This document shows, piece after piece, positions 3,887 to 41,901 of a DNA stretch of 44,426 nucleotides (position 1 is the stretch's first letter; each line of letters opens with the position of its first letter). Under the pieces are notes generated by a model that ran no database searches, had not been told where the DNA came from, and worked only from the letters and a program-made list of their open reading frames with translations. A program made the translations under genes and the position numbers. Source of the DNA: a virus; the IMG/VR virus record IMGVR_UViG_3300005581_000030, positions 1-44,426 of that record. One strand, given 5' to 3'.

Positions 3887-4111
3887 ATGCCCAAACCCAC
3901 CGACACCACCACCACCGAAACCAAGAAGACCATCAAGGTTCTCCGCAAGGCGACCACGGCGTACATCTACGCCATCCGCAAGGCGAAGAAGTCCATGTGG
4001 TTCCCCGACATCAGCGAATCCGACAAGGACGGCAACCTCGTCTCTGTCACGCAGTTCATGGTCAACTGCATGAAAGCCATCGACGAAGCCAACACGAAGT
4101 TCGTCTCCTAA
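3887..4111 (+). CDS. Hypothetical small basic protein
   Basis: 74 residues, not recognised. A threonine-rich N-terminus (MPKPTDTTTTETKK) precedes a basic helical part (KTIKVLRKATTAYIYAIRKAKKSMWF) and a second helix. The leader is 'ggcaacaaccaacaacaacc'. It uses strongly GC-ending codons (ACC, GCC, ATC), unlike the late genes. The TAA shares its last base with the ATG of the next tiny frame (TAATG), suggesting translational coupling. Confidence 0.65.
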   Translation: MPKPTDTTTTETKKTIKVLRKATTAYIYAIRKAKKSMWFPDISESDKDGNLVSVTQFMVNCMKAIDEANTKFVS

Positions 4112-4170
4112 TGCTGTTCGGCATCGCACTCCTGCTGTGCGTTGCAATCGCTTACAGCAAAGGCGACTAG
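4111..4170 (+). CDS. 19-residue hydrophobic peptide coupled to upstream gene
   Basis: Frame ATG CTG TTC … GAC TAG, product MLFGIALLLCVAIAYSKGD: a short hydrophobic helix with a charged tail. It overlaps the preceding stop by one base (TAATG). Too short to be certain. The hydrophobic composition and coupling are the only support. A similar arrangement (small gene followed by a tiny membrane peptide) occurs at 3307/3602. Confidence 0.35.
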   Translation: MLFGIALLLCVAIAYSKGD

Positions 4171-4185
4171 CCTCACGGCATTCGT

Positions 4186-4236
4186 TAGAACAAGGTCGCT
4201 CTCCCGCCTACGGGCGGGGGGGTGGCCCCCGTTCTA
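4186..4236 (+). terminator. GC-rich hairpin with UNCG-type tetraloop, probable end of early region
   Basis: CCCGCC (4203-4208) and GGCGGG (4213-4218) close a TACG loop, the C(UNCG)G type that is exceptionally stable in RNA. An alternative pairing is GGGGG-TGG-CCCCC (4218-4230). An outer stem TAGAAC (4186-4191) / GTTCTA (4231-4236) encloses both. No T-run follows directly, so it may act as a roadblock or RNA-stability element rather than an intrinsic terminator. Confidence 0.45.
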
Positions 4237-4325
4237 GGTTCCCTATTACTGACGGGTTCACATGTACACATCTTTTCTCTAAAAAAACCCTCGTAATTGA
4301 CTGGTTTTGACTTGTTTTTGGCAAA

Positions 4326-4440
4326 GTGGGTGGGGTGAAGTTTATTACATGGGGGGGGGTGTAATGAATTTCACTGGGGGGGTGTAATGAATTTCCCCCA
4401 ATAGAATAGAATCATAGAAAAGAGTTATATAGATACAGGG
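4326..4440 (+). other. G-run iteron cluster plus AT-rich tract (origin-like locus 2)
   Basis: Two near-identical units consist of a G-run (9 and 7 G) followed by TGTAATGAATTTC; they start at 4351 and 4376, with the TGTAATG blocks 23 bp apart. The second ends in CCCCC. A diverged third unit, GGGGTGAAGTTTATTACA, starts at 4332 and is also roughly an inverted copy of the unit core. An AT- and purine-rich stretch (aatagaatagaatcatag…) follows to about 4437. The same arrangement lies in the initiator gene at 39797-39890. The 4171-4474 stretch has no other gene. Confidence 0.6.
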
Positions 4441-4474
4441 TTGACAAATGGTTTTATTGGTTATTCTGGCAGGA

Positions 4475-4957
4475 ATGAAGACGGAAAAGGAATTGAATTG
4501 CGAGTATGGCTGGGACATTGCCGAAATGAAGTGTGTCCGAAAACAGATTATTAATTTTGATTCACAAGAATTGTGGACACGCCTTGAGTCAAAGAAGCCC
4601 GAGCATCTACGGACGGTTGTTTGGACGGACTTTGGTGTTGAGTATCTGAAGGCTTGGTTTGAAGGTGTTAGGGAAGCGGACAAGTTAATTGCGTATTTGG
4701 GTAAAAACCCTGTCGAAAGCGGCAGGTTGGAGGAGGTTGTTGTGCATAACGATATAAGAGACCTGTGGAATTCGCAGTGGGTCGGCAAGGTGACTAAGAA
4801 CTGGTTTCCAAATGACAGGATAATGGAAGTTCAGCACGAGAACGGATTGCTTGTTATTGTGTATGTAAGGAATTCTAAGTCGTATCGAATTGGCGATAAG
4901 GTTTTAGTTGACTCTCAAAGAGTCAGTCATTATGTCAGAGGAGGAGCGATTAAATAA
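4475..4957 (+). CDS. Hypothetical protein at start of late module
   Basis: 160 residues from ATG at 4475 (preceded by 'ggcagga', one of the few purine-rich upstream sequences here); an in-frame ATG at 4448 would add nine hydrophobic residues. Not recognised. It appears soluble, with an aromatic-rich middle ('TDFGVEYLKAWFEGVREADKLIAYLG') and a beta-rich C-terminus ('GLLVIVYVRNSKSYRIGDKVLV'). It is the first gene after the G-run repeats, so it may be the first late-module gene. A TTGACA sits at 4441-4446, with TATTCT 15 bp further on. Confidence 0.65.
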   Translation: MKTEKELNCEYGWDIAEMKCVRKQIINFDSQELWTRLESKKPEHLRTVVWTDFGVEYLKAWFEGVREADKLIAYLGKNPVESGRLEEVVVHNDIRDLWNSQWVGKVTKNWFPNDRIMEVQHENGLLVIVYVRNSKSYRIGDKVLVDSQRVSHYVRGGAIK

Positions 4958-5950: not shown

Positions 5951-6026
5951 GCCACCGTAACTCAATTGGCAGAGTACCTGTTTTGTAAACAGACGGTTGT
6001 CGGTTCAAGTCCGACCTGTGGCTCCA
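5951..6026 (+). tRNA. tRNA-Thr (anticodon TGT) with encoded CCA
   Basis: A complete cloverleaf reads from GCCACCG. The D-arm is ACTC-AATTGGCA-GAGT, the anticodon stem CCTGT / ACAGA has loop TTTGTAA (anticodon TGT, reading ACA), and the T-arm is GTCGG-TTCAAGT-CCGAC. The 3' acceptor strand CTGTGGC is followed by T and CCA (6024-6026). One acceptor pair is mismatched. It lies between two virion-module genes and probably supplements the host for ACA codons. Confidence 0.95.
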
Positions 6027-20989: not shown

Positions 20990-23062
20990 ATGGCTGAATC
21001 TTTTTATGACCCGAATTTGATGGCTGAACAGCAGAGGAATGCGACTCAGTCTACAGCGGGTTTTGACGCTTTTATTAAGGAAAGACGAGAACAGCGGGCA
21101 CAGTACGACAAGTCTAAGCAAGAGCGTGAGCAAATGATTGCGGCGGCAGAGGGTCTTGCCGAGCACTTTGCTCCGCAGGGCGAATCTGCTCCTGCCTACA
21201 TTGCTAAGTTCCTTAAGAAGGCCGAATCTGGTGGCGGTGTCCAGCAGTTGTCTTCGCAAGACATCGGCAAGTTCCTTGGCATGCACCAGACTGTTGCTAA
21301 ACAGCAAGAGTTTGAATCTGGTCAAGCGGACAAGGCTAGCAGTATTGCCCTCCGTGGTGCACAGATTGATGCGTCTAGAGCCTCTATTCCGCACACACAG
21401 GCACAGACTAGGTCTTTGGCTGGTGAGGAAACAAGAAAGCAAGCCGAGTATGACAGAGCACAGGTTCTTAATAAGTTCCTTGCTGAAACACAGGGTGCTG
21501 ACATTGGCACTCCTACTAATACAGTTACCGCACCCAAAGGTGTTGGCATTGAAAAACCTACATTTAAAGACCCTAGAACTGGCGAAACGGTTGAAATTGA
21601 CCAGTCTTCGTACAGCGAAATGGGTCTGGATGAAAACGGGCGTGTTGTTGACAAGGATGTCTTCACCTATGTTTCGAGCCTTGGTGCTGAAGAACTGTCT
21701 ACCATCATTGGTCACCACTTGGCTCCCTCTGCCGAAGTTAACATCAACAAGGAAATCGATGCTAGCCGTCCCAGATGGAAGCAAGTCATTGGTCTAGAGC
21801 CAGAGGTTATCTTTGATAAGGGTGGTTCTAGAAAAGATATTATTGGGCCTAACGGTAAGATTGATAAGGAAAAGCCGTTTAGCAAAAATATCGATAAACT
21901 CATTGATGTTATTAACCACAATCCTAGACTTTTTCCTGGGGGTGTTCCTAGAACCTACAAGGGAAGAACCATCGTGCAGGGCTACACTTGGACTGGCAAT
22001 GGTCGAAAGACTACGCTGACAGCCCCCGAAGTAGACACGCTACAGGAATTTGTTATCGATAGACTGCGTGAGGGTGGTTACGAGGACTTGGCTAATGTTG
22101 GTACGCTCATTAAGGGCCATAGAGAAATCACTAAGGTTAATGACACAAACGCTCTTCAGTTTGAAAAGAAGATGTTTACAGAAACGGTTGAACAGAGAAT
22201 TGACGATGAGGCCGCTCTTGCTAGCATTCGCTATGACCAAGTAGCCGCCAGATGGAGAGCACAGGGTCTTCCTCCTCCCCTGCCAAAGGCCGCTTACATT
22301 GCGGCTAGCGTACCAGACCTTACTAAGGTTGTTCCTGTGTTGGACTTGAGTGGTAGACCTACTGGTCAATACAAGACCTATGTTAAGGTTGGCGACACTT
22401 GGAAGGACGCTACCGTTGAAAAGGGTACTGAGGCTAGTGACAAGGAGGCTTGGATTAATACGGAAGCCAGAGGTAAGGACAACATGCTTAACTTTAGCGG
22501 TCAGTATGGCAATATTGCCGTCAGTGGCAGGGCTACAGCCTTTGACGAAAAGGGTGTTAGAGAACTTTCTGAGACGCTAAATGACATGGATGCGTTCAAC
22601 GAAGCCATGGACACGCTTAAAACACTGTACGAAAGCAAAAGTTTTATTGACAGAGTTAATCCTGCCAGTGGTGTCCGTGCACAGATTAAAGGTCTTATTG
22701 CTAGAAACCAGCCTCTTATTAGAAAAATTATTCTTGGCACTGGTGTTGTGACTGAACCCGACCAAGCCAGACTTAACCAGTTGTTCAGAGACCCAGATTC
22801 GTTTGAAACTTGGTTTAACGATGCGGCTAATGTTGCTGAATTTGAGGCCATTAAGGGTGTCATGGAGCAAAAGGCCGTTGCTCTTTTAAATATGCATAAG
22901 GTCGTTCAGCCCAATGGACAGAGAGGATTTATGATTACTGGTAATAACAGTAAGGGTAGGGGTAAGGCTCTTGAACTTCTTGCCGTTCACCAGCAGGGAT
23001 ATAAATTGACTCCTGCCGATATTGCTGTCATCAAAAAGCACAACCCCGCTTTTGGACAATGA
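20990..23062 (+). CDS. Internal virion protein B-like (gp15 position)
   Basis: 690 residues from ATG at 20990. A TTG at 20984 would add two codons, but the ATG follows 'cggagg' about 10 bp upstream, one of the few Shine-Dalgarno-like sites in the genome. The protein is helical, with a basic N-terminus ('FIKERREQRAQYDKSKQEREQM'), a mixed central part and long helices near 540-640 ('LSETLNDMDAFNEAMDTLKTLYES'). By order it is the T7 gp15 counterpart, forming a periplasmic tube. No enzymatic motif is recognised. It overlaps the giant gene by 4 bp (ATGA). Confidence 0.65.
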   Translation: MAESFYDPNLMAEQQRNATQSTAGFDAFIKERREQRAQYDKSKQEREQMIAAAEGLAEHFAPQGESAPAYIAKFLKKAESGGGVQQLSSQDIGKFLGMHQTVAKQQEFESGQADKASSIALRGAQIDASRASIPHTQAQTRSLAGEETRKQAEYDRAQVLNKFLAETQGADIGTPTNTVTAPKGVGIEKPTFKDPRTGETVEIDQSSYSEMGLDENGRVVDKDVFTYVSSLGAEELSTIIGHHLAPSAEVNINKEIDASRPRWKQVIGLEPEVIFDKGGSRKDIIGPNGKIDKEKPFSKNIDKLIDVINHNPRLFPGGVPRTYKGRTIVQGYTWTGNGRKTTLTAPEVDTLQEFVIDRLREGGYEDLANVGTLIKGHREITKVNDTNALQFEKKMFTETVEQRIDDEAALASIRYDQVAARWRAQGLPPPLPKAAYIAASVPDLTKVVPVLDLSGRPTGQYKTYVKVGDTWKDATVEKGTEASDKEAWINTEARGKDNMLNFSGQYGNIAVSGRATAFDEKGVRELSETLNDMDAFNEAMDTLKTLYESKSFIDRVNPASGVRAQIKGLIARNQPLIRKIILGTGVVTEPDQARLNQLFRDPDSFETWFNDAANVAEFEAIKGVMEQKAVALLNMHKVVQPNGQRGFMITGNNSKGRGKALELLAVHQQGYKLTPADIAVIKKHNPAFGQ

Positions 23063-26000
23063 GCAAATCCTTTTACTATGATAATGCTGAATCACTCGAA
23101 AAGATTCGGCAAGACATGGCCTTTCTTGATTCGGTAAAAGACCCGCTCAAGAATCCTTACAACTTAGCGGCTAAAGAAGAAGCCCCTAAAGAAGACGATG
23201 TTCTTACTAAGGGTGAGCGTGAGGCTTACCTTATTGGCAACTATGCCAAGGGTGGGTATGTGCCTACCGCTGACGGCTACTTGGCCTATGAAACATGGAA
23301 GAAGCAGAACGAGCCTAGTGCTTGGGGTACTATCTGGGAGGCTGGTAAGCATGCTGTTTCCACCGTTGCTGGTGGCATTTACGACACGGTTGCTAGCGGT
23401 GACATTCTAAATCCGCTTACTGTTGGCGGTACTGTTGTTGAAAGTGGTGGCAGGGGAACCAGATACTTCGTCAACATGCTTGACCAAATCAAGTATGACC
23501 CGACCAATCCTATTCATCGTACACTATTTCAGCAGGGCACTCCCGAACAGAGATATGCCGACTTCCAGAAGGGCTTGGAATTCCAGCGTGAAACCGCAGA
23601 GATTGAAAAGGCTGGTTATTGGGTTCCTAAGAAGGAGTGGGATGTTGAAGGATGGAAGATTCGCACCTTTAACGAAAGTGGGGTAGCGGCTGGCGAGATG
23701 GTTCTCGACCCGTCCATCCTTATGCCTCAACTAAAGATTGGTTCGATGCTTGGTAGGACTGCACTTGGTTCTGCTATTACTAAGTCTGCGGCTAGGATTG
23801 CTGTCAAGGGTGCTAACCTTGCTGAAAGAGCGGCTATGAAAATTGAAGGTGGTGCTGGCAAGGTTGCTGGAACTGCCATGGGCATCTTTGAATACCCTGC
23901 CAATAAGGCTAGCGAGTTCCTTGGTATCGAAACACTTACTACATCTAATGGTAAGGTCATTGCTAAGGACTCTATTATTCGTGGTTCTGGTGTTGCTCTT
24001 GGCGTGGGTGCTTACCTTGCACAGATTCCGTTTGCGGCTCCCGTTGCTGGTATTTGGCTTGGTGCTAAGGTAACAGAAATTACTGGTAAGACCATCGCTG
24101 AAGCGTTGGGTCATGCTAAGACTCCGTCCTATTTGACGATTGCTGACAGGCTTGCCTACCAGAGCACCGACCCTGCTGTCCGTGCTATCGGTGGTATTGC
24201 TATGCGTACCAACGGATTTACCGATTGGGCTACGCAGGGTGTTAAGTCCACATTCCACGGCTCCATGTATGGTGGTGCGTTTGGCTTTGCCCTTGCTGGC
24301 GAAGAAGGTTTCTACAGCGGGGTCGGTACTGGCATTGGTTTGGCTGGCTCGTTCCACATGCTTGGTGGTGCTTACGGTATCGTGGGCAACAGAAAGGAAC
24401 GCCAGATTGCCAACGCTCAGAAGCATTTTTCTTATGTCGCTGAAGGCTTTGATGAAGCCAAGCGTTATGGTGTGAACAGACTGCTACAGAACATTGAGGA
24501 AGTTTACGGGCAGGAAAAGATGTTCAGAACGATGGCTAACATTGCCGCCGCTGAGCGTTTTAACAAGAACGGCAAGAACCTTATTCTTACAACGGAACAG
24601 ATTCAAAGCATTCTTGGCGATTCTCCCGATTGGGCCGAGTACCAGAAGTTGATGAAAGACCCGCAGTTTGGTGGCTACACTACCAGACGGGCTGGTAGCG
24701 GTGAAATTGTAACTATTATCAATGCTGACTATGCGGCTCATTCTGCCGTGAGCGGTGAACTGTTTCACTCTGCGTTGCTTCAGCGTTACGGGCAGGGCAT
24801 GAAGGAGCATATTGTTAAGAGCCTCCTTGGCACTGCCGACAGCGATGGCTTCCTTTACAAGTTGGCTCCAGAAACTAGAATCAAAATGCTTGAAGACTTC
24901 AAGCGGGCTTACCTTGAACTGGATGACACTTCTGGTGGCGGTGCTCAGCGTTCTATGCTGAAGTCTTTTGACGAAGCCATCGAACGGGTTAAGCGTGGAG
25001 AGAAACCCGAGACCCTTTACCCTATCTTTGAAGAGTATGCCGAAGCGTACTTCAACAGATGGGTGGAAGACAAGCCCATTGACTACCTGCTTCGTGGCTC
25101 CAATCCGTTTGAATCCGTCTTTGACGGTGCTAAGAAGATGGTCAGAGGGCTTATCGATAGAGACATCGAACAGGTTGGCGGCAGAATGCAGTTTAAGTCT
25201 GGAGAACCAGAAGGGTTCTTCTTAGACGGCAACGGCAAGCGTGTGGTTGTTCCAGAATTCGACAAGGTCATGCGTCTACTTGTCCGTGAGATGAAGAGAG
25301 ACCCCGATGCCCTTGAAGGTTTCCCTATCCGAGACAATGTTAACCAGCACCATGTAATGCTTAAGGATGCTGAATACCTGTTTACAAAGGACGAAAGCGG
25401 TAAACTGGTTCGCAAGAACGAGGAGCAGATGGAAGTGGAATGGTCTAAGGGCATCACTGGACTAATGAACGCCCATGCTAAACTTAAGCCAGAAGAGAAG
25501 GGGCTTAGATTTACTCAGCGTGTCCTTTCGGCAGTTGAAGAAGATGTCGAAGGTGCGTTTGCCCCCAAGAGCAAGAAGGCTACCGAACTTGAGAAAGAGG
25601 CTAAGCGTCTTGAAAAGATTACGAAGCAGAGACAGGCTAAGTTGCTTCGTGAAGCGGCTCGTGCGGCTAAGTTGTCCGACAAGGAACAGCGTAAGTTGGC
25701 TAGAGAACAGGAGTCCAACCTTGACGCAGAAGTTGAACAATTAAGAGAGCAGTCTGAATACGAAGGTGTCGTTGAATACAAGATTGAGGGTTACATGACC
25801 GATGCTGAAATCAACTTGTTTACCGAACATCTTCCCAAGGCTGTAGTCCAGCGTATGGCGGCTTTTAACAGAGTCATTCATACCAAGGGTTCTGACGGCA
25901 ACAATGCTCTCAGATTTGATTATGAAAGCGAAACGAGCCAAAACTTCTCTTACACTAAGGAAGGTTCTCCGACTGGTGCAGGTAATGAGAAAAATAGTGG

Positions 26001-29000
26001 AAGAGTTAAAACGCGTGATATCGTCCCTTATGAAATGATTCTTAAGTTTGAGCGAAAGAGACTGACCAAGTCGCTCAGAGCAAAGTATGGCATTGACGAT
26101 GCAGACGCTATGTATGCCGCCATTAAGCCAGTGTTGCTTGTAAACGGAATCGACATGAAGGCGTTGGACAGACGAGTCCGCTACGCATACAACCACATGC
26201 GTAGACAGAACGCCACCAGTTCCATCTCGTCTGCCACGGTAAAGATGTACTACGAGTCGGAGGAAGAGATTCACCACGACATCAAGAGACTGCTTGGCAA
26301 CTACAGCCTTGGTGACATTGCCATGGCTGGTGCTGACTTCTTTGGTGGTGGCTCCGAGGGTCGTGCCAAGCGTGACATTATCAATGGCATCATTGGTGCT
26401 AGACCTGTACGCTTTAGCCCCGACAAGATGCAGAAGAAGGGGTATCACTACCCGCTTGACCTTCAGAGACCCATGACTGGCCCGAAGTCCAGATACGAAG
26501 GCGGGCCTCTTAACGAAGCGTTCATGGCGTTTACCTCTTTCAGAGTGGATAGAATGCTAGACAGACCTAAGCACCTACATGGTGAAGGTTTCTACTACGA
26601 CCACGACTACGCTCACCCCATGAACAAGGGCAACTTCCAGCCCCGCTCTAAGGCTCTGCGTGACCATGTCGGCAGACCTCTTAGTTATTCCGAGCGTCAG
26701 TTGCAGGACGAAACTGTTTTCAAGAGTCCCAGTGGTGAGCCTTACAGAGTCTTTGCCAGCAACAAGGAGGGTGGTGTTCATTACGCTTGGTTCGATGAAG
26801 GCCGAGCCGTTGACAACCATAGCCAGCATACCGAAGGCTACATCTCTCTTAGAAATAATGAGGTGCTGGACATGCTTAATGACGGCAAGATTGATTCCGT
26901 CAAAGACTTAAACGCCGACTTCATGCGTAAGGTAGCCGACATGGGCTACAAGGCTGTTGTTGCCAGAACAAACGATGGTGACCGTGTGGTTGCCTTCACT
27001 GACTTTAACAAGTTCAAGCAGACCGATGTGTCTGCCTTTGACCAACTGCTTGGCAACTTTGCCCCTAAGAGCAGAAGCATTGCCGAGATTACAAGAGAGC
27101 GTCTTGGTCTTACTGGTGCTACGCCCGCTACTCCCGAGGCTGGCAAGCCTATGACTCTGGCTGAGCGTACCAGAGCCAGACTTGGACTTCCTCAAAGTCC
27201 CGTTGAAATGCTTGCTGAGCGTACCTTCGGTGTGCCCAAGGCTGAACCAATCAAGATTGATGTAGCCACAGACATTGTAGTTGGCACTCCCGAGCGACAA
27301 ATGTCCCCCGAACAGACGGCTAAGGTTCAGAAGTCTCTTGCAATTAGAAAAGGTCTTCTTGCTGAGCGTGGACTACAGGGTGAAATTAGAAAAGAGATTC
27401 TTACTAACAGAAGAAAGTTTGCAGAAGCAATGGCTAAGACCAAGGAGTTCAAGGGGTGGTCTTCCACTGAGGTCTTTGATTCGATGTACACAAGCATCTG
27501 GGGTGAAAATGCCACCATCTCTATTACAAGTGGTGGCAAGGTTTCCCTTGGTGTTATCCAGTCTCTTAGCCCCAAGGAGTATGGGGCTTACAGAAGAGAC
27601 GGTGTGCTTCCTTCCGACATCAAGCAGAGAACCATTGCTGACATTGATATGGCTTTGATGGAAAACTGGAAGCGTAGACACCTTCTCCAGCAGTCGCTCG
27701 CCAAGACTAAGGCCAATGTTAAGATTGCCTTTGATGAAAGGCGTAAGCAGGAGGCTAAGTATTCCACTGAACTCGATGCCATTAGAAATGAACTTATTCA
27801 GATGCTCGCTTCGTACAAGATGTTCGATGTGGCTGATGATGTTCTTGGTGCTGAAATTGGAAAGAAGCGTGTAGGCCAAACCTACCGCAAGGAAGTAACT
27901 CCCGAAGTTGGTGGTTGGACTCCAGCCAAACAGATTACCGCACTGAACAGTCCCGATACTTTTGCCCAGTCCAAGGACAGGGCGTTCTCTTATAAGACCC
28001 TAAAGGCTTTGTATCCTTTGCTTGGCAGAACAGACCCTATTACTGCCATGGATGTCTTGTCTTTGGCAACGCCCGAGATGAAAGACATCCGAAAGGAAAT
28101 GAGCACGAGTGCTCTTAAGCATGTCATCGAGGAATTCAACCAGTACAACCTTGTTGAACACAGAAAGTGGCTTGCCGATAAGCAGAAAAGTCTAACGCAG
28201 TACGCCAAGGAGAAGGAGAAACTGGACAATGACATTAAGTCCGCTGAGTCTACCAGCAAGAAATACGACACCTCCGAGGCTAGAGCCAGAAGCAATGAGT
28301 TGGCTTCTAAGATTCGTGAAACAGAAAAGTCGCAAGACCCCATCATCGAAGAATGGAACATGCAGGACTACAAGGAGGAGATGGTTCACGAACTCCTTCA
28401 ACTTAAGCCAGACGAAAGAGCGGAAAGCATTGATGCATATAGAAAGCAGTTCGACATTAGTGGCAGAACCGATGAATGGCCCGAGGTCGAACAACTGCTA
28501 ATTAAGAGTGGCATCCTTCCCCCCGAGAAGATGACCAAGGAATACGGAAGAATCGTAGAAGTTAATGATGGCGAGAGGCGTGTGCTTGGTGGCGTTTCGG
28601 AGAACTACAAGGATGCCATGGACGAGGCTTACCGAGTCCTACAGCAGTCCATGAAGAAGGACAAGACCATCACGCCCCTCCAGCGTTTCACCGTAATGAT
28701 GCAGTCTGTCGCCAGACACTATAAGAAGAACCCTGCTCTCCGTGAGAAGATGAAGCAGTTGGAATCCCTGTTCAAGGAGACGGAACAACTGACCGACTTT
28801 AACCTTAAGCGAGCGTATAAGAAGATGCTCGACTACGGCTTTGTGTCGATGAACTGGGACGGCGATGGAAAGAAAGTTGTCCTAGATGCCACTGGTCACT
28901 ATGTCGAAAGAGTAAGCCCGCCTAAGAAGGAGATTGGCATGGACTTCGGTAAACTTCGTATGCCCAAGGGCTGGACGATGAAGCAGGAGCGTGTTGTTCT

Positions 29001-32000
29001 TACCTCTACTGATGGTATCAAGGTATCCAACCATGAGATGGAGAAGGCCATCAGAGACATGCGAGCCAGATTTGGCGAACAACTTGAACAACTTAGTGAT
29101 GACCAAATTATTGAATTGGCAAAAGACAATAAGGCTGGCGTTGCTACTGAAACAGTTAAAGAAGGAAGAAGAATTGGAGAAGATAAACTAACAAACATTT
29201 ACCTTACTGGTGAGGCTAGAACCATTAGACGCTGGGCGGCTTTTGAAGAGCGTAAGGATAACACCTACGAAGAGACCGACTCTAGAATTATTTATGTTGA
29301 AAAGAAACCCAAGTACATCTTGGCTAAGGGTGTTAAGTCGGACAAGATGATGGTCATCCCTGTTTCTGAAACTACTTTTGACAAAAAGAAGGGTACTTTC
29401 TACTGGTCTCGTGACAGACAACTTAACGAAAAGACTAAGGCTCGTAGTTATTCTAACATTGAATCGTGGTTGGGCGAAGAAGGAACGGTGTTTAGGTCTG
29501 TTCACGACTTAACCCTTGGTGATACCTCCGATGTCTATGGTGCTTACAAGCCCAACGGCTGGCACATTGACGGCAAGTACTTCAAGACACAGGACGAAGC
29601 CAAGCGTCTTGCCGTTATCGATGCTGAAAACAACCACGCCTACGAAGCCGTCTACAAGACTGCTAAGCGGCTAGACAAGGATGCTTACATTACTGTTCTT
29701 CAAATGATTCAGAACAGCACTGGGATTACATACCAGAATGCCATCAAGGAAGCCATCGGGTTTCAAGGAACACGAAAGAAATGGATTGATAATCCCGACT
29801 ATAACCCGAACAAGCCTTGGTCTTTGCAGGACAATCCTCGCAAGATTCAAGTAAAGGAAGACTTCACTGGTGCTAATGTTCCTCCCGAGTTCAAGAAACT
29901 TGCCATCTATAGAGCGGGCAACATGTTGCTTGTTACTTCCGACAACAGAAGGGATGTTCTTACCAGACTTACTGCCGAGGCTAAGGTCTCTGTTAGGGGT
30001 GGAAGAACTAAGAACATTGAAGCGATTGCCCGTGAGGCTATCGGTGAGCGTGAAACAGGCAAGAAGGTGCTTGGAGACTTGTATAGAATCGTCAAGGACG
30101 AGAACGGTCAGATGGCTGGCATTGATTGGATTACCCATTACGACAACCCCAGACAGGTGTCGGAAATGATTACCAAGATGAACGACCAGTCTTATGTAGA
30201 CCTAGATACCGCCGTTGAATTCCAGCGTAGGCTTACAAAAGAAATTAAGCCTGTCCTTGCCAAGGCTTTCAAGGAAGAGAAGAAGAAGATTTACACGGTG
30301 CTTACTGAAAACCCGAAGAAGATTCGGGAAATTAGAAGCAGACTCAATGCTATCGAAGAGGCTCACGAAAAGTCCGTAGAAGACACTGGTATTATTATCA
30401 AAAAGGGACTGAAGCCTTCTGCTAAGAAAGACTTCATTAACAGAAACCTTGATAGGCTTAACCGCCAGACCAATGAACTTACTGACACCATTGAAAGGAA
30501 GTTGCATTACATTTTTACGATGGGCTTCCACAGAAGACCCGAAGTTGCTGAAAGACTTATTGGTGAAGGCAAGTACTTTGAAGACAAGACCAGCGTTGAT
30601 AATTACTACGAGGAAATTCTTGAAGACAGAAGACGGCAAAGATACATTAGAGACGAGAATGGTAATGTTCTAATTGAATATCCAGAAACTGATGCTCTTT
30701 CTACTAAGAAGAAGTTGGAAGACAGCCTTGGTGAAATCGAGAAGTCTTGGTCTGACATGATGCCGAAGAACAGGGCTACCGCTTTGCTTGAGGATGTGCT
30801 CAATGGTACATACAATGAAGAGCATGAACTTCTAACCAAGCAGATTGACTTCCTTAAGAGACAGTTATCCATGGCGGCTGGTGGCACTGAAAAGGTTAAG
30901 GCTGGTCTTACTGGATTAAGTATCGACAAGAAGGCTGGTGCTGGAAGATGGATTGGCCCTAAGGAACAAGCGGCTGAAGAGGCTAAACTTGCCAGAATTG
31001 AGAAAAGCATCCCAAAGAAGTATGAAGAAGTACCTCTTGGCACAGTCGAAAAACTCCTTGAGGGTACGCAGGGTCTTAGCGACAAGAAGGTTGAACGCTT
31101 CCCTACATACCTTCCTCCCGAAGGAGAATCGTTTGTGTCTGCCAGAGACTACTTAGATAGATTCCAGCGGTTGGTCAGCGACATTGCTGAAGCCAACAAG
31201 AAGTTTGGCGACTCCGCTTCTCTGGACAAACTAGACCTCCAGAAGATTCTGGACACCGATGCTGACCTGTTGCCTACCAAGGAAGTAGATGCCCATGTCG
31301 CTAGACAGGAGTCCCTTGATGCGATGAAGGACAACATTCGTAACATCGAGGAATACTTTGACCGTAGCACACAGCCTCAAGAAGGTAAGGACTTCAAGTC
31401 TGCCGTTGATGTTTGGGGACTTGCTGAAGGTCAGTGGATGGCTGAAATTAGCGAGAACAGAATCAATGCGGCTGTTCGTGCCGCTATGGAAGGAAGACAA
31501 GACCATGTCATTCTTGCCAATAGGGCTAACCAGAAAATCAAGACCCATTACGAAGGTATTATTAAGGCTAGAATGGCTGTTATTGATGCCAATTTTGCCA
31601 AACTTTCCCCAGAACTAAAGCCAATTTACATCAAGTATTTGGAGAGAGTCCGTGACGGTTTGGCTGTCGAGCGGGCGGCTGAACTGGAGCGTGTACAGTC
31701 AGAGATTGCTACTATCAATGAAACTGCTGTCGAGTATAGTCTGACACCAGACAATCCTAAGTTGGCTGGACTGCTGGCTAAGTGGCAGGAGTTGGGGATG
31801 AAGGGTGACCCTATGACGATGTACTCCTCCAAGGAGGAAAGCGTCCGTAGAATGTTCCCGTTCCTGTTCTCTGAATTCTATCCCAGCAGACAGGACATTG
31901 CTACCTCATCTTCCTATACCAAGTGGGAGTCCAGAGCCACGGACGAAGCGGTTGCCTCTGACACGACCAAAACTGGCAATAGACAGGGCATGAATGTCGG

Positions 32001-34026
32001 TGGTTTTACGACAACCAACCCGATTGTTGCTGAAGTTATTCGCAACGAACAGACAAGAAACAAGTTCCTTAGCATGCGTGGTCTCCGTGAGATTGACCTG
32101 TTTGCCGCCGCTCTTGCTAAAAAGAATGCTGTTGAAACGCAGTTCAACAATGGTGGCAAGGACGCTGTTGTACAGATTGATGCCGAAGGTTACGCCCTTC
32201 TTGAACGGTACTTCCCAGAACTTACTGAAGGCAAGGAAGGCCCAGATGGTAAGCCCATCTGGAAGATTAACTTCAAGATTAACAAGGAGGCTGGCTACGA
32301 GGATTCGTTTGCCACTGCTGGATACGCTAAGCGTGTGCGTGAAGAGAAGAAGGTCGGAGAGATTGCCCTAGAGGGCGGTCTCATTGACAAGGCTTTCAAT
32401 TACTTCTTGGACGAGGTGACCATGAACCAGTCCCACATCGAGCATGCTATTGCTAGACTCAGTGGCAAGGAACGACTGGCTGAACTTACCGCCCCAGAGA
32501 ACCTTTCCCCCAACGGCAAGATTGACATTAGAAAACTCAATGTCGAAGAACTAGACTTTGCTTTCCATGTGCTAGGCAAGGCTAAGATTACAAACGAAAA
32601 GGCACACATGTCGGTCATCGAACTGACGAGCAATCCGTTGTATGCCAAGAGCATGATTCTTGCCTTCTCTAGAAACAAGGAGGGTAGCCTACAGTCTATC
32701 TTTGGAGACGACCCTCAGAAGTCTGCCACCTTCCTTGCACTGAACCTTAGTGATAAGAAGAAGTTTGTTGACGAAATCGTTAGACAGATTGAATTCTCCA
32801 AGGACAAGATTGAGTCCGAAAAGGCTAAGTCCAACAAGGAAACCATTGATGCTTCCATTGCTACGGCTTGGAAGGTTAAGGAACTGGAGAAGATTTCCAA
32901 GGAGCAGGTGGATGCCGCCAAGCACCTGTTACTTGAGTTGGCTAAGACCGACTCTGCGGTCAAGGCATACAAGGGGAAGGTGGAACAGTTCTGGTCTAGC
33001 AGACCGCAAGCCAGAACAAACATCCTTAGCATCGATGACTCGCTAAAGTTGCTTTCTCCCAACATGGAATACGGCAAGGCTATCATTGGTGCTGACGGTA
33101 AGACCGTTGATGTTCCAGTTGCTAACCCCAACGATGCCTTGTTCAGAACGGCTAACGGCATGTTCCACGCCTTCAAGCAGGGTGGTTCGTACAAGTTGTT
33201 CTTCGCTGGCTACAAGTCTGCGGACGGAAATGTCAGCATTGCTCCGTCCCACATTATGACGGCTCCCGACCTACAGAGATTGCAGGTTGGCATTAGAATG
33301 TTCCATGACGATGTGAAGCGTGTGGAGGTCATGTCTAAAACCGCAACCGACAGCATTGAACTTAAGGGTGCTGAAGTTGCCTCGTTCTCTGGTTCGTTCT
33401 TTGAGACGCACGGTGGCTCTATTGCTCCCGACCTGTTGAAGGCTCTGCAATTTAACCTTGCCCAGATTGGCAACTACCCCGACACGACATGGCTGGTCAC
33501 GCCAGAGAGCGGTAACAAGAGACAGATTGTTATCTATCCTAACACCACTACATGGGACAAACTCCATAACAGCGGAGAATACATTAAGAAGGATGGCTCG
33601 TGGTATAAAGACCCTGCTGTGCAAAACGCCCAAGAGCGTCTTGACCGTGCCCGTCTTGAACTAGAAAGCCAGCAGGTTGCCGATGTCACTACGGCTGAAC
33701 CAAAGCCCAGCGAAATCATTTCCGAAACCGCCAACATATCCAAGCACGACCAGCCCGATGCAAAGGACAAGAGAGCCGAAGCCATCGACAACAAGGTGGT
33801 CATGCAGGTCATCGAAGAGGGCGACATCTATAATGGCACTAGCGTGGAACCCGCCATGCAGGATTGGACTGCTCTAAAAAATAGAGACGGATGGGTAGTC
33901 ATGCGGGAGCAGAGTCGTGATGCCAAGGGATGGAAGACTAGGTTCAAGACCTTCTTCCCCAGCGGTGTGCTTGCTGGCATTGATGCAAACGAGGAGGACG
34001 CTGTGTCCAGAATGTTCAATGAGTGA
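23059..34026 (+). CDS. Giant 3,655-residue ejection/polyvalent protein (gp16 position)
   Basis: At 10,968 bp it takes about 25% of the genome. By order it is the last of three ejection proteins (T7 gp16 position), but it is nearly three times gp16's length (1,318 residues). Residues about 225-445 are Gly/Ala-rich with several hydrophobic stretches (near 310-344 and 402-444) that could insert in membrane. Residues about 1220-1322 resemble ADP-ribosyltransferase-like domains of large polyvalent phage proteins ('PYRVFASNKEGGVHYAWF' … 'ADMGYKAVVARTND'). A short repeated linker (AE-x-TR-x-RLGL) follows at about 1340-1390. Long charged helices fill most of 830-3400. I found no lysozyme-type, helicase, methylase or HExxH motif. 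Confidence 0.75.
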   Translation: MSKSFYYDNAESLEKIRQDMAFLDSVKDPLKNPYNLAAKEEAPKEDDVLTKGEREAYLIGNYAKGGYVPTADGYLAYETWKKQNEPSAWGTIWEAGKHAVSTVAGGIYDTVASGDILNPLTVGGTVVESGGRGTRYFVNMLDQIKYDPTNPIHRTLFQQGTPEQRYADFQKGLEFQRETAEIEKAGYWVPKKEWDVEGWKIRTFNESGVAAGEMVLDPSILMPQLKIGSMLGRTALGSAITKSAARIAVKGANLAERAAMKIEGGAGKVAGTAMGIFEYPANKASEFLGIETLTTSNGKVIAKDSIIRGSGVALGVGAYLAQIPFAAPVAGIWLGAKVTEITGKTIAEALGHAKTPSYLTIADRLAYQSTDPAVRAIGGIAMRTNGFTDWATQGVKSTFHGSMYGGAFGFALAGEEGFYSGVGTGIGLAGSFHMLGGAYGIVGNRKERQIANAQKHFSYVAEGFDEAKRYGVNRLLQNIEEVYGQEKMFRTMANIAAAERFNKNGKNLILTTEQIQSILGDSPDWAEYQKLMKDPQFGGYTTRRAGSGEIVTIINADYAAHSAVSGELFHSALLQRYGQGMKEHIVKSLLGTADSDGFLYKLAPETRIKMLEDFKRAYLELDDTSGGGAQRSMLKSFDEAIERVKRGEKPETLYPIFEEYAEAYFNRWVEDKPIDYLLRGSNPFESVFDGAKKMVRGLIDRDIEQVGGRMQFKSGEPEGFFLDGNGKRVVVPEFDKVMRLLVREMKRDPDALEGFPIRDNVNQHHVMLKDAEYLFTKDESGKLVRKNEEQMEVEWSKGITGLMNAHAKLKPEEKGLRFTQRVLSAVEEDVEGAFAPKSKKATELEKEAKRLEKITKQRQAKLLREAARAAKLSDKEQRKLAREQESNLDAEVEQLREQSEYEGVVEYKIEGYMTDAEINLFTEHLPKAVVQRMAAFNRVIHTKGSDGNNALRFDYESETSQNFSYTKEGSPTGAGNEKNSGRVKTRDIVPYEMILKFERKRLTKSLRAKYGIDDADAMYAAIKPVLLVNGIDMKALDRRVRYAYNHMRRQNATSSISSATVKMYYESEEEIHHDIKRLLGNYSLGDIAMAGADFFGGGSEGRAKRDIINGIIGARPVRFSPDKMQKKGYHYPLDLQRPMTGPKSRYEGGPLNEAFMAFTSFRVDRMLDRPKHLHGEGFYYDHDYAHPMNKGNFQPRSKALRDHVGRPLSYSERQLQDETVFKSPSGEPYRVFASNKEGGVHYAWFDEGRAVDNHSQHTEGYISLRNNEVLDMLNDGKIDSVKDLNADFMRKVADMGYKAVVARTNDGDRVVAFTDFNKFKQTDVSAFDQLLGNFAPKSRSIAEITRERLGLTGATPATPEAGKPMTLAERTRARLGLPQSPVEMLAERTFGVPKAEPIKIDVATDIVVGTPERQMSPEQTAKVQKSLAIRKGLLAERGLQGEIRKEILTNRRKFAEAMAKTKEFKGWSSTEVFDSMYTSIWGENATISITSGGKVSLGVIQSLSPKEYGAYRRDGVLPSDIKQRTIADIDMALMENWKRRHLLQQSLAKTKANVKIAFDERRKQEAKYSTELDAIRNELIQMLASYKMFDVADDVLGAEIGKKRVGQTYRKEVTPEVGGWTPAKQITALNSPDTFAQSKDRAFSYKTLKALYPLLGRTDPITAMDVLSLATPEMKDIRKEMSTSALKHVIEEFNQYNLVEHRKWLADKQKSLTQYAKEKEKLDNDIKSAESTSKKYDTSEARARSNELASKIRETEKSQDPIIEEWNMQDYKEEMVHELLQLKPDERAESIDAYRKQFDISGRTDEWPEVEQLLIKSGILPPEKMTKEYGRIVEVNDGERRVLGGVSENYKDAMDEAYRVLQQSMKKDKTITPLQRFTVMMQSVARHYKKNPALREKMKQLESLFKETEQLTDFNLKRAYKKMLDYGFVSMNWDGDGKKVVLDATGHYVERVSPPKKEIGMDFGKLRMPKGWTMKQERVVLTSTDGIKVSNHEMEKAIRDMRARFGEQLEQLSDDQIIELAKDNKAGVATETVKEGRRIGEDKLTNIYLTGEARTIRRWAAFEERKDNTYEETDSRIIYVEKKPKYILAKGVKSDKMMVIPVSETTFDKKKGTFYWSRDRQLNEKTKARSYSNIESWLGEEGTVFRSVHDLTLGDTSDVYGAYKPNGWHIDGKYFKTQDEAKRLAVIDAENNHAYEAVYKTAKRLDKDAYITVLQMIQNSTGITYQNAIKEAIGFQGTRKKWIDNPDYNPNKPWSLQDNPRKIQVKEDFTGANVPPEFKKLAIYRAGNMLLVTSDNRRDVLTRLTAEAKVSVRGGRTKNIEAIAREAIGERETGKKVLGDLYRIVKDENGQMAGIDWITHYDNPRQVSEMITKMNDQSYVDLDTAVEFQRRLTKEIKPVLAKAFKEEKKKIYTVLTENPKKIREIRSRLNAIEEAHEKSVEDTGIIIKKGLKPSAKKDFINRNLDRLNRQTNELTDTIERKLHYIFTMGFHRRPEVAERLIGEGKYFEDKTSVDNYYEEILEDRRRQRYIRDENGNVLIEYPETDALSTKKKLEDSLGEIEKSWSDMMPKNRATALLEDVLNGTYNEEHELLTKQIDFLKRQLSMAAGGTEKVKAGLTGLSIDKKAGAGRWIGPKEQAAEEAKLARIEKSIPKKYEEVPLGTVEKLLEGTQGLSDKKVERFPTYLPPEGESFVSARDYLDRFQRLVSDIAEANKKFGDSASLDKLDLQKILDTDADLLPTKEVDAHVARQESLDAMKDNIRNIEEYFDRSTQPQEGKDFKSAVDVWGLAEGQWMAEISENRINAAVRAAMEGRQDHVILANRANQKIKTHYEGIIKARMAVIDANFAKLSPELKPIYIKYLERVRDGLAVERAAELERVQSEIATINETAVEYSLTPDNPKLAGLLAKWQELGMKGDPMTMYSSKEESVRRMFPFLFSEFYPSRQDIATSSSYTKWESRATDEAVASDTTKTGNRQGMNVGGFTTTNPIVAEVIRNEQTRNKFLSMRGLREIDLFAAALAKKNAVETQFNNGGKDAVVQIDAEGYALLERYFPELTEGKEGPDGKPIWKINFKINKEAGYEDSFATAGYAKRVREEKKVGEIALEGGLIDKAFNYFLDEVTMNQSHIEHAIARLSGKERLAELTAPENLSPNGKIDIRKLNVEELDFAFHVLGKAKITNEKAHMSVIELTSNPLYAKSMILAFSRNKEGSLQSIFGDDPQKSATFLALNLSDKKKFVDEIVRQIEFSKDKIESEKAKSNKETIDASIATAWKVKELEKISKEQVDAAKHLLLELAKTDSAVKAYKGKVEQFWSSRPQARTNILSIDDSLKLLSPNMEYGKAIIGADGKTVDVPVANPNDALFRTANGMFHAFKQGGSYKLFFAGYKSADGNVSIAPSHIMTAPDLQRLQVGIRMFHDDVKRVEVMSKTATDSIELKGAEVASFSGSFFETHGGSIAPDLLKALQFNLAQIGNYPDTTWLVTPESGNKRQIVIYPNTTTWDKLHNSGEYIKKDGSWYKDPAVQNAQERLDRARLELESQQVADVTTAEPKPSEIISETANISKHDQPDAKDKRAEAIDNKVVMQVIEEGDIYNGTSVEPAMQDWTALKNRDGWVVMREQSRDAKGWKTRFKTFFPSGVLAGIDANEEDAVSRMFNE

Positions 34027-37245: not shown

Positions 37246-37317
37246 TTGCCCCGCTTGGAATCGAACCAAGATAACCCGCTTAGAAGGCGGGTGTTCTATC
37301 CGTTGAACTACGGGGCA
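37246..37317 (-). tRNA. tRNA-Arg (anticodon TCT)
   Basis: On the - strand: acceptor TGCCCCG pairs fully with CGGGGCA; the D-arm is GTTC-AACGGATA-GAAC; the anticodon stem CCCGC / GCGGG has loop CTTCTAA (TCT, reading AGA); the T-arm is CTTGG-TTCGATT-CCAAG; the discriminator is A. CCA is not encoded, unlike the tRNA-Thr. It lies between the ERF gene and a small gene in the replication operon, so it must be processed from that transcript. AGA is very common in the late genes. Confidence 0.93.
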
Positions 37318-38425: not shown

Positions 38426-38879
38426 AGTAGTGTTTTACAAATCTTGCAACGCCATTCTGCTTAACTGTCGGGGCGAGTCGGACAGAGAAATTGATGCGTT
38501 TCGCTCCAGCCCACCCCATGGTGTACATGAGATAAAGCACTTCTGGACTAGGTCTTTGTCCGTGTAACTTGTAATATTGGTCAGAGAGTGTTTCACAGTA
38601 GGTTCTCGCCATGGCTCTTGCCACGGTCTCCAATGGCTGTGTAGAGTACGCATATGTCGGCAGTGAAGACTTCGCACGGATGGAGTTGACATAGTTCCAT
38701 GTGGGTAGCCAGATTTGGTACGATGATACGCTCCTCCCCGCATCGCCAAGTGACGGTATCCCCCGTGTTTCTGCAAACGATATCGAATCGAGTGTCTTGT
38801 CAATAGGGTCTGCATTTGCGACCAATACTGAAGCGAGGTAGAATAGGAGTCTCGTGGATACCACATTAGGAAGCCCCAT
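38415..38879 (-). CDS. Secreted lytic transglycosylase-like endolysin
   Basis: 154 residues. The N-terminus (VVSTRLLFYLASVLVANADP) is a signal peptide or signal-anchor. The mature part shows a lytic transglycosylase pattern: 'ISFAETRG' with probable catalytic Glu37, then 'GDAGRSVSSYQI' (45-56), equivalent to the G-x-G-x-x-x-G-x-Y/LMQI segment of the family. C-terminal 'YLMYTMGWAGAKR' resembles the following helix. It would cleave peptidoglycan after secretion. It is the only cell-wall enzyme recognised in the window, yet it sits in the replication operon, about 4 kb from the holin and on the opposite strand. Confidence 0.7.
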   Translation of the reverse strand: MGLPNVVSTRLLFYLASVLVANADPIDKTLDSISFAETRGIPSLGDAGRSVSSYQIWLPTWNYVNSIRAKSSLPTYAYSTQPLETVARAMARTYCETLSDQYYKLHGQRPSPEVLYLMYTMGWAGAKRINFSVRLAPTVKQNGVARFVKHYYGK

Positions 38880-39555
38880 AGATTTTGAAGTAGTCTTTGA
38901 TTCTGCGGACGATGGCTACACCAGTCTCGGTGTTGTTGAACCTGTCGCTTAGACCCGTACCGTTATAGTTCGTGGTGATGATGGTCGCCCGCTGGTTGGC
39001 GGTACGCTCGTCAATAATAGCGAACAGGTCGGTCTCCATGCGTGGGGTCAGACGCTCCTTGCCTAGGTCATCGATGCACAGGATGGTCGTATTAATGAGT
39101 CGGTCAAGGATGTCACCATGGTTGCCGTCCTTGAAGCCTTGCTCGATTTTCTGTTCCAACTTACGCATGGTAAGGAACTCAGCGTGACGAGGGTAACATT
39201 TAAACCATGCATCGTTGAACATACGCCATGCCGCACGGGTCTTCCCCGTGCCCGTCACGCCATGGAGCAGTACGCTGTCGGTATGGTTGCCTCGGTACTC
39301 GCTCAAAGCCTTCTGCATGGCAGGAGAGAGCATCGTATCGATGGTGGCGATGAACGCACTAGGCGTGTTAGGATGCAGACGCTTGAACGCCCACTTATTC
39401 TTTTCAAACACATCCTTGTACACATACGGGTACTCAAAGTGTTCCTTGGTCTTGAAGCAGTCCAAGCAGACTGCTACATACGGTTTGAACTTCTCGCTGT
39501 GCATGTCCCAGACTGGGACTGCGTCAGCATTACAGTGAATGCATTTAGAAGCCAT
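38866..39555 (-). CDS. DnaC-like AAA+ helicase loader
   Basis: 229 residues. A zinc-finger-like N-terminus (CIHC 5-8, CLDC 30-33) precedes an AAA+ ATPase: Walker A GVTGTGKT (99-106), Walker B ILCIDDLG (158-165), sensor 1 TTN (194-196) and an arginine pair (217-218) consistent with an arginine finger. This matches DnaC/IstB-type loaders that place the replicative helicase on DNA. It overlaps the initiator gene by 11 bp; together they parallel lambda O and P in function. No phage helicase is seen, so host DnaB is the likely client. Confidence 0.9.
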   Translation of the reverse strand: MASKCIHCNADAVPVWDMHSEKFKPYVAVCLDCFKTKEHFEYPYVYKDVFEKNKWAFKRLHPNTPSAFIATIDTMLSPAMQKALSEYRGNHTDSVLLHGVTGTGKTRAAWRMFNDAWFKCYPRHAEFLTMRKLEQKIEQGFKDGNHGDILDRLINTTILCIDDLGKERLTPRMETDLFAIIDERTANQRATIITTNYNGTGLSDRFNNTETGVAIVRRIKDYFKIYGAS

Positions 39556-40201
39556 TGGCGTGGTCTTGTGAGGTTAGGCGTTTTTTGTTTTTGGTGGCGT
39601 TGTCGTTCATTACAAAAATGCCCGTCCAGCCAAAGGCAATGCTTTTGTTAATCGATGCAACAGCGGACTCTTCGCTCTGCCACGAGGCCAGCATGCCCAA
39701 TTGCTCCTTGATGGTCGTAGGCTTCATGGCCTTACGAATCTCTTTGCGGTATCCTACCCACTTCTCCCAAGCATGCTTAAAAGCATCTCCATACGGAAGC
39801 ACATGTGTATCTTTATCCTCTTTTTTATCTTCTTTACTATATGGGGGAAGTTCATTGCACCCCCCTAGGGAAACTGGGTTCACCCCCCCCGTGCACTTTT
39901 TTTCCTCCCCTGCCTTAAGCAGGGCTTGGCGGGCCACCGTCCGCAGGTATCGGACAGAGCCTTGAGCGTTGCTCTCTAGCACACGGGTAATGACACCTGC
40001 GTCCAGCAGGTCACCTACGATGTTCTTCACCTGTCGCTGGGATACCCCTAGGATGCGTCCCAGATACCCGTTAGAGGCATAGCACCCGTCCTCCCCATCC
40101 AGACCGTCAATGATGCCATAGGCCATCTTAGCGGTCACGGACAGGTTCTCGTGCTCCAGAATTTCCCTCGGGAGCCAAACACCAGTAAACTTGGGGTTCA
40201 T
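39545..40201 (-). CDS. Replication initiator (lambda O / DnaD-like organisation)
   Basis: 218 residues. Residues 1-90 form a winged-helix domain ('NLSVTAKMAYGIIDGL', 'CYASNGYLGRILGVSQRQVKNIVGDLLDAGVITRVL'), as in phage initiators. A Gly/Pro/Lys-rich linker (about 97-135) follows. The C-terminal domain contains 'WEKWVGYRKEIRKAMKPTTIKEQL' and 'SINKSIAFGWTGIF', the conserved 'SI..GW.G.F' block of DnaD/O-like proteins that contacts loader or helicase. The linker is encoded by DNA carrying G-run iterons (39843-39890), just as lambda's origin lies within O. The start at 40201 overlaps the exonuclease stop. Confidence 0.82.
   Translation of the reverse strand: MNPKFTGVWLPREILEHENLSVTAKMAYGIIDGLDGEDGCYASNGYLGRILGVSQRQVKNIVGDLLDAGVITRVLESNAQGSVRYLRTVARQALLKAGEEKKCTGGVNPVSLGGCNELPPYSKEDKKEDKDTHVLPYGDAFKHAWEKWVGYRKEIRKAMKPTTIKEQLGMLASWQSEESAVASINKSIAFGWTGIFVMNDNATKNKKRLTSQDHANGF
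39797..39890 (-). other. Candidate replication origin inside the initiator gene
   Basis: On the - strand, G8-TGAACCCAGTTTCCC (39890-39868) is followed by G6-TGCAATGAACTTC-C5 (39865-39843). An AT-rich, purine-biased stretch of about 45 bp follows (atatagtaaagaagataaaaaag…). Two tandem iterons about 25 bp apart, then an easily melted tract, is the layout of lambda-type origins. The second unit differs at only two core positions from the units at 4351-4399. It lies in the linker-coding part of the initiator (residues 104-120). Confidence 0.6.
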
Positions 40202-41445: not shown

Positions 41446-41901
41446 ATGGAATACGAATCCAAGTACGAGCGTGTCAAGTCCGATTCAAAGGATGGTAACC
41501 AAGAAAATCTTGAGCCAGAAAAACGCGAAAAGATTGAATGGATGACCAAAGAAGGTCACACCCAGAAGGAAATCGAGGCAGAAGTTAAGGTCTCTAGCCA
41601 TACCGTTGTTGCTGTACGCCAGCAAATGGGTGACAATGACATCGATATTGGAAATTACAAGCGTCAGACCGCTGACCTGTTTAAGAAAATTGTAATGAAG
41701 GGAGCACACAGGCTCAATACCGAGATTGACGACATCCCTATTGGCATGATGCCAGTTTCTTTGGCTATCCTTATTGACAAGATTGCCGTCCTCCAAGACC
41801 AACCTACTGTCATTATCGAAAACAGGCTCAAAATTTCTCACGAACATTTGAATAAAATGCTTGAAGGCGAAATTATTGACCTGCCAGACGAGCCAAAATG
41901 A
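41446..41901 (+). CDS. Helix-turn-helix protein, candidate small terminase or regulator
   Basis: 151 residues. After a charged N-terminus, residues about 27-60 read as a helix-turn-helix ('REKIEWMTKEGHTQKEIEAEVKVSSHTVVAVRQQM'). A helical central part ('RQTADLFKKIVMKGAHRLNTEIDDIP', then 'LAILIDKIAVLQDQPTVIIENRLKI') and an acidic tail (EGEIIDLPDEP) follow. HTH plus helical oligomerisation region plus acidic C-terminus is how many small terminases look, and no other candidate is near terL. A transcriptional regulator is the main alternative, given the divergent, overlapping promoters. Confidence 0.6.
   Translation: MEYESKYERVKSDSKDGNQENLEPEKREKIEWMTKEGHTQKEIEAEVKVSSHTVVAVRQQMGDNDIDIGNYKRQTADLFKKIVMKGAHRLNTEIDDIPIGMMPVSLAILIDKIAVLQDQPTVIIENRLKISHEHLNKMLEGEIIDLPDEPK
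41448..41477 (-). promoter_or_regulatory. Sigma70-like promoter for the replication operon
   Basis: On the - strand, TTGACA (41477-41472), an 18-bp spacer and TATTCC (41453-41448) lie 15 bp before the RusA start codon. It is embedded in the first codons of the divergent HTH gene. The two promoters therefore face each other across about 15 bp and should interfere, giving a switch-like arrangement. Confidence 0.55.

Follow-up and report, generated by a model that had tools for sequence, protein, structure and literature searches.

The closest described arrangement is that of Bacillus phage SPP1, in which oriL lies inside the initiator gene (gene 38) and oriR is intergenic, 12-13 kb away (PMC3485210, PMC6316719). 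Both origins consist of direct repeats and an AT-rich unwinding region, and both are bound by the initiator, G38P (PMC3485210, PMC6316719). In the SPP1 model, G38P bound at oriR stalls replication forks and triggers concatemeric replication, a step that involves a RusA-type resolvase, an exonuclease and an annealing recombinase (PMC3485210, PMC6316719, PMC5615212). Dual origins with one initiator are, in the literature searched, well described for SPP1 only, and the role of the second origin there is still a model. The single origin of lambda and lambdoid phages combines iterons with an AT tract and lies centrally in an O-like initiator gene, next to the helicase loader gene. The AT tract of lambda-type origins is dispensable for O binding and required for unwinding (PMC7466680), and lambda initiation is blocked by ectopic origin copies supplied on a plasmid (PMC4488673).

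The window, i.e. the whole stretch of 44,426 nucleotides of viral DNA analysed here, shares features with both systems (Table 1). As in lambda, origin-type repeats (dyad iterons) with an AT tract alongside lie inside an initiator gene that belongs to the O-like family by profile, followed by a loader gene. By contrast with lambda, the three units have a sequence other than that of the lambda iterons, the spacers are G/C runs, and a second full copy is found outside the gene. As in SPP1, one locus is in the initiator gene and the other is intergenic (about 9 kb apart here, 12-13 kb in SPP1), each combines direct repeats with an AT-rich region, and the gene set includes an initiator, a loader, a RusA resolvase, an exonuclease and an annealing recombinase (PMC3485210). 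The locus therefore has a precedent in oriL/oriR (PMC3485210, PMC6316719), contrary to the initial annotation, which knew of no phage system with such a pair. The resemblance is one of layout, and an oriR-like function is proposed by analogy. There are also differences: SPP1 encodes its own DnaB-type helicase, whereas none was found here among the proteins scanned, and in the present phage the array abuts a late-operon element that is conserved, and its second copy is a clade-specific gain. Binding of the initiator to both sites is shown in SPP1; here, matched dyads and co-varying junctions point to it indirectly.

Table 1. Features of the two origin-like loci and their surroundings (positions in the window).
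Feature	Position	Strand	Basis or remark
Intergenic origin-like element	4336-4440	+	Second copy of the in-gene element, just before the late genes
Intergenic dyad unit 1, TGAAGTTTATTACA	4336-4349	+	Array fit; same place in relatives
Intergenic dyad unit 2, TGTAATGAATTTCA	4360-4373	+	Preceded by spacer TG9 (4350-4359); motif search, array fit
Intergenic dyad unit 3, TGTAATGAATTTCC	4383-4396	+	Preceded by spacer CTG7 (4374-4382); motif search, array fit
Intergenic 3-nt junction, CCC	4397-4399	+	Compared with the in-gene junction in paired genomes
Intergenic purine-biased AT tract, AATAGAATAG...ATACAGGG	4400-4440	+	Alignment and relatives; copy of the in-gene tract
Conserved TTGACA	4441-4446	+	42-44 bp past unit 3; 28-30 nt before conserved ATG
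First late-block gene	4475-4957	+	Conserved start ATG at 4475
DnaC-like helicase loader	38866-39555	-	PHROG 50, E 8.6e-24; adjoins the initiator gene
O-like replication initiator, 218 aa	39545-40201	-	PHROG 678, E 9.5e-15
In-gene origin-like element	39806-39905	-	Inside the O-like initiator gene
In-gene AT/purine tract, ATATAGTAAAGAAGATAAAAAAGAGGATAAAGATACA	39806-39842	-	Alignment; codon conservation
In-gene dyad unit 3, TGCAATGAACTTCC	39846-39859	-	Junction CCC at 39843-39845; motif search, array fit
In-gene dyad unit 2, TGAACCCAGTTTCC	39869-39882	-	Array fit
In-gene dyad unit 1, GGAAAAAAAGTGCA	39892-39905	-	Read in register with G002 and G003, where unit 1 is GGAAAAAAATTGCA

Both elements consist of three 14-bp dyads (5+4+5 bp), separated by spacers of 8-10 bp in which G runs predominate, and then a junction of 3 nt and a purine/AT tract, which at the intergenic locus is a candidate DNA unwinding region. 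For unit 1 of the in-gene array the automatic fit was one base off, and the register of two relatives was used instead. Reading of the sequence and motif searches confirm the intergenic repeat units placed by the initial annotation at 4351 and 4376, and its matching AT-rich purine tract is borne out by alignment and by the relatives. Two of its details had to be revised: what it took for a degenerate third unit, at 4332, is in fact the first unit and a regular one, which seems inverted because each unit is itself an imperfect dyad, and the in-gene element, described as a single unit, has three.

The similarity of the two loci extends beyond their G/C runs. Allowing up to three mismatches, GGGGGTGYAATGAAYTTC occurs at exactly three places in the window (4355+, 4378+ and 39847-), against 0.13 expected from shuffles; the motif search proposed earlier thus returns both loci, and arrays were also found in relatives. 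The bare 13-base core is not significant in the window (8 matches, 4.8 expected). When all runs of at least three G or C were masked, which was the statistical test suggested at the outset, the similarity survived: compared with the in-gene element, 4326-4440 reaches a score of 51-52 and the next unrelated window among 8804 one of 28, and none of 5000 shuffles attains the score of the intergenic element, which alone matches the in-gene element strongly. The two ends of the window have 15 bases in common, and the contig ends appear to join, since relatives have the window-end and window-start genes contiguous. Across this join the arrays are about 8.9 kb apart on opposite strands, much as first described (inverted, about 9 kb), with the correction that they face outward.

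Codon conservation in the initiator gene fits a DNA site within it. The codons under the array and tract show the lowest amino-acid identity of the gene (0.44-0.61), but the fraction of identical codons among identical residues is 0.79-0.82 there and 0.50-0.60 in the rest of the gene. Such a pattern, protein identity down and codon identity up, is as expected for selection on a DNA site, and low-complexity codons could contribute to the high codon identity. In the AlphaFold2 model (mean pLDDT 72), the protein has a winged-helix N-terminal domain, a disordered linker (residues 100-130) and a helical C-terminal domain; the linker coincides with the stretch encoded by the array and the greater part of the tract (about residues 99-134). 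Searches against Pfam gave only a sub-threshold HTH_36 match, and a sequence search of solved structures gave none. The best Foldseek matches are the N-terminal domains of plasmid Rep proteins (5kbj, 4pql, 4pt7; E 8.6e-4), with DnaD lower, and one of these three was solved with DNA. The search output lists them as Rep/initiator structures, which we take to be RepA_N initiators. The likeness to these staphylococcal RepA_N-type proteins, at about 20% identity over about 115 columns and low TM-scores, is a resemblance of fold only.

Relatives were collected as viral contigs through searches with the initiator, loader and p10104 proteins and a DNA pattern scan, and were read whole where useful. 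A three-dyad fit to every array returns one architecture, in which inverted 5-bp half-sites flank 4 bp and units are separated by spacers of 8-10 bp, in which a single run of G or C usually predominates; 3 nt and a purine-biased AT tract follow. In the clade of the window the half-sites follow roughly (T/G)GNAA...TTNC(C/A). In distant relatives they differ (GGCAA/TTGCC in G014, GCCGA/TCGGC in G025, TGCAC/GTGCA in G026, GGATG/CATCC in G035), and the 5+4+5 layout is constant despite this divergence. The dyads are near-perfect in G014, G019, G025, G026 and G035, and in the near clade their mean score (10.6 of 15) is moderately above that of shuffles (7.9). Of the two copies, the intergenic one has the more regular G-run spacers. 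Formation of a G-quadruplex is unlikely to be the point of these runs: several relatives have C runs on the same strand instead (CCCC in G014 and G019, CCCCC in G025, CCCCCC in G026), and a search for four-G-tract motifs with loops of up to 12 found none in the window.

The distribution of the second copy was followed with a layout-only scan of the genomes, for which reversed sequences served as background (37 matches in 1.86 Mb). Two strong arrays are found in G002, G006, G008, G009, G011, G012, G013, G030 and G036. The two-copy genomes have one strong array outside the initiator gene, and the de novo scan finds none there in other genomes; weaker extra matches (scores 8-10) are unlike the element and occur at about the background rate. 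In the window and in G004 and G005, spacers or dyads of the in-gene array fall below the limits of the scan, but this array is evident from alignment and reading. The contigs G028 and G029 carry the intergenic array and lack the initiator gene, and the remaining records have the in-gene array only. In the initiator tree the two-copy genomes form one clade (support 96/99), which includes G003, a contig that ends short of the intergenic site; in the diverged clade the initiators are about 50-80% identical to that of the window. In two-copy genomes the arrays are about 7.7-9.0 kb apart on opposite strands, with the tracts pointing outward, and the twelve distinct intergenic arrays keep the geometry of unit, spacer and junction. 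On sequence comparison, the relatives show a clade-specific second copy that was gained once and has been kept in step with the original since.

This matching is most visible at the junction, which is of the same type at both loci in all nine genomes with both: CCC in G000, G002, G005, G006 and G011, and TAC in G008, G013, G030 and G036. Pairing within genomes beats random pairing (2e-4 overall; 2 of 120 permutations within the subclade), although shared descent of the two loci accounts for part of the matching and is partly controlled only by the subclade comparison and by G011. Because G011 (CCC) sits within the TAC group, both of its loci appear to have changed together; support there is moderate (84-91). 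Decay of the in-gene copy since the gain is not supported, since the mean dyad scores of the two loci are equal (10.6 each). The same data bear on the reading of the intergenic copy as a site of initiator titration or autoregulation, or as a decaying duplicate with no current role. Titration would agree with the block that plasmid-borne origin copies impose on lambda (PMC4488673), but a diverged clade has retained the copy together with its tract, and changes in the copy parallel those in the gene, which makes this reading very improbable. By these comparisons the second origin-like element is real, conserved and clade-specific.

The position of the array introduces a stronger competitor. In 12 of 12 intergenic arrays TTGACA follows after 42-44 bp, and the first late ATG 28-29 nt later; in four array-less relatives (G014, G016, G018, G035) TTGACA also occurs, 29-30 nt ahead of the start codon of an apparently equivalent gene, matched by tblastn in G018 and G035 and by eye in G014 and G016. 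In the window the open reading frame of this gene, which has no family match, starts at 4448 and is probably nine codons too long. From this distribution, TTGACA is an ancestral late cis element, and since array-less relatives have the same late start, the array was most likely placed beside an existing control element. The array might mainly control the late operon, with the initiator on three dyads upstream of TTGACA activating or repressing late transcription, which would tie it to replication or to the level of the initiator. The setting directly upstream of that element, at a constant 42-44 bp, and the distance of 28-30 nt to the ATG in all clades make an initiator-controlled late promoter a live, if unlikely, rival. 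However, no -10 box is seen near TTGACA and the promoter scan of 4000-4700 finds no promoter-like site, distant relatives run the same late operon without the array, and the AT tract and junction, which binding at lambda-type origins does not require (PMC7466680), have been retained and vary together with their in-gene counterparts. The two functions may also be fused, so that firing or melting of a second origin also times late gene expression. This possibility draws on the evidence for both readings, tract and TTGACA forming one block at fixed spacing, but it requires two functions where one suffices and is considered improbable.

Several observations on this region stand apart. The spacing from TTGACA to ATG (4441-4477 in the window) is nearly fixed across very diverged relatives in the absence of a recognisable -10 box. 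A phage-wide promoter at fixed distance from the ATG is rejected, as other genes have no consistent TTGACA. A 151-aa helix-turn-helix-like protein (41446-41901, +) is present in nearly all relatives of both clades; in PHROG it weakly matches DNA-binding proteins and a sigma factor (E 1.2e-5 and 0.0015), with no Pfam support, and TTGACA could be its target. The cumulative GC skew is lowest at 4292, by the intergenic array, and reaches its maximum at 39602, by the in-gene array, each within 0.25 kb and each inside a run of same-direction genes. Skew was dropped as evidence for an origin: the switch is a property of the late-operon start and not of the array, because the array-less G014, G016 and G035 show it too, and elsewhere the maximum does not track the in-gene array.

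The intergenic element is thus, probably, a second origin of the oriR type, at which the initiator encoded by the phage would bind and unwind DNA. All parts of the in-gene origin (three dyads, junction and AT tract) have been copied, the copy is maintained in the clade, and the loci are matched. Retention of the tract argues for origin function over binding alone, as the lambda-type tract serves unwinding (PMC7466680). The initiator, probably as one dimer per dyad, would bind both arrays and melt the adjacent tract, and the DnaC-like loader would then recruit the host helicase. If SPP1 is a guide, early theta replication would begin at the in-gene copy, and the intergenic copy would come into play afterwards, either as a second start or as a fork barrier made by the initiator. 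Such a barrier could switch replication to recombination-dependent concatemer synthesis through the RusA, exonuclease and Erf proteins, whose genes are present in the phage.

Of the ideas in the initial annotation, a matched second origin-like locus finds strong support, and the two readings offered for it, dual origins or a late region controlled by the initiator, are both retained. A broader scheme, advanced tentatively, is that a single origin duplication was set upstream of the late control element, that the initiator both starts replication and times late transcription, and that conversion or co-selection keeps the copies matched. The arrangement suggests a simple way to link replication with late gene expression. 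What is new here is the clade-specific gain, the outward-facing pairing at 7.7-9 kb and the position 42-44 bp upstream of TTGACA-N28-30-ATG. In this lineage of unclassified phages the gain of a second origin can be placed on a tree, and relatives without it offer a natural comparison of its effects.

Other features of these genomes were recorded in passing. A search for the host turned up no bacterial genome contig with a gene for a terminase relative. A 3655-aa reading frame (23059-34026, +) has no PHROG match at E 0.1. The window carries two tRNA genes, Thr (5951-6026) and Arg (37246-37317), and the one-copy relative G018 has a cluster of ten tRNAs upstream of the late operon (L068, 2488-3670). 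The O-like gene of the distantly related Pseudomonas phage Cruim01 contains ACCTATTCGGAAA four times as direct repeats at a spacing of 20-23 bp (L142, 42446-42523), a candidate for an unannotated origin.
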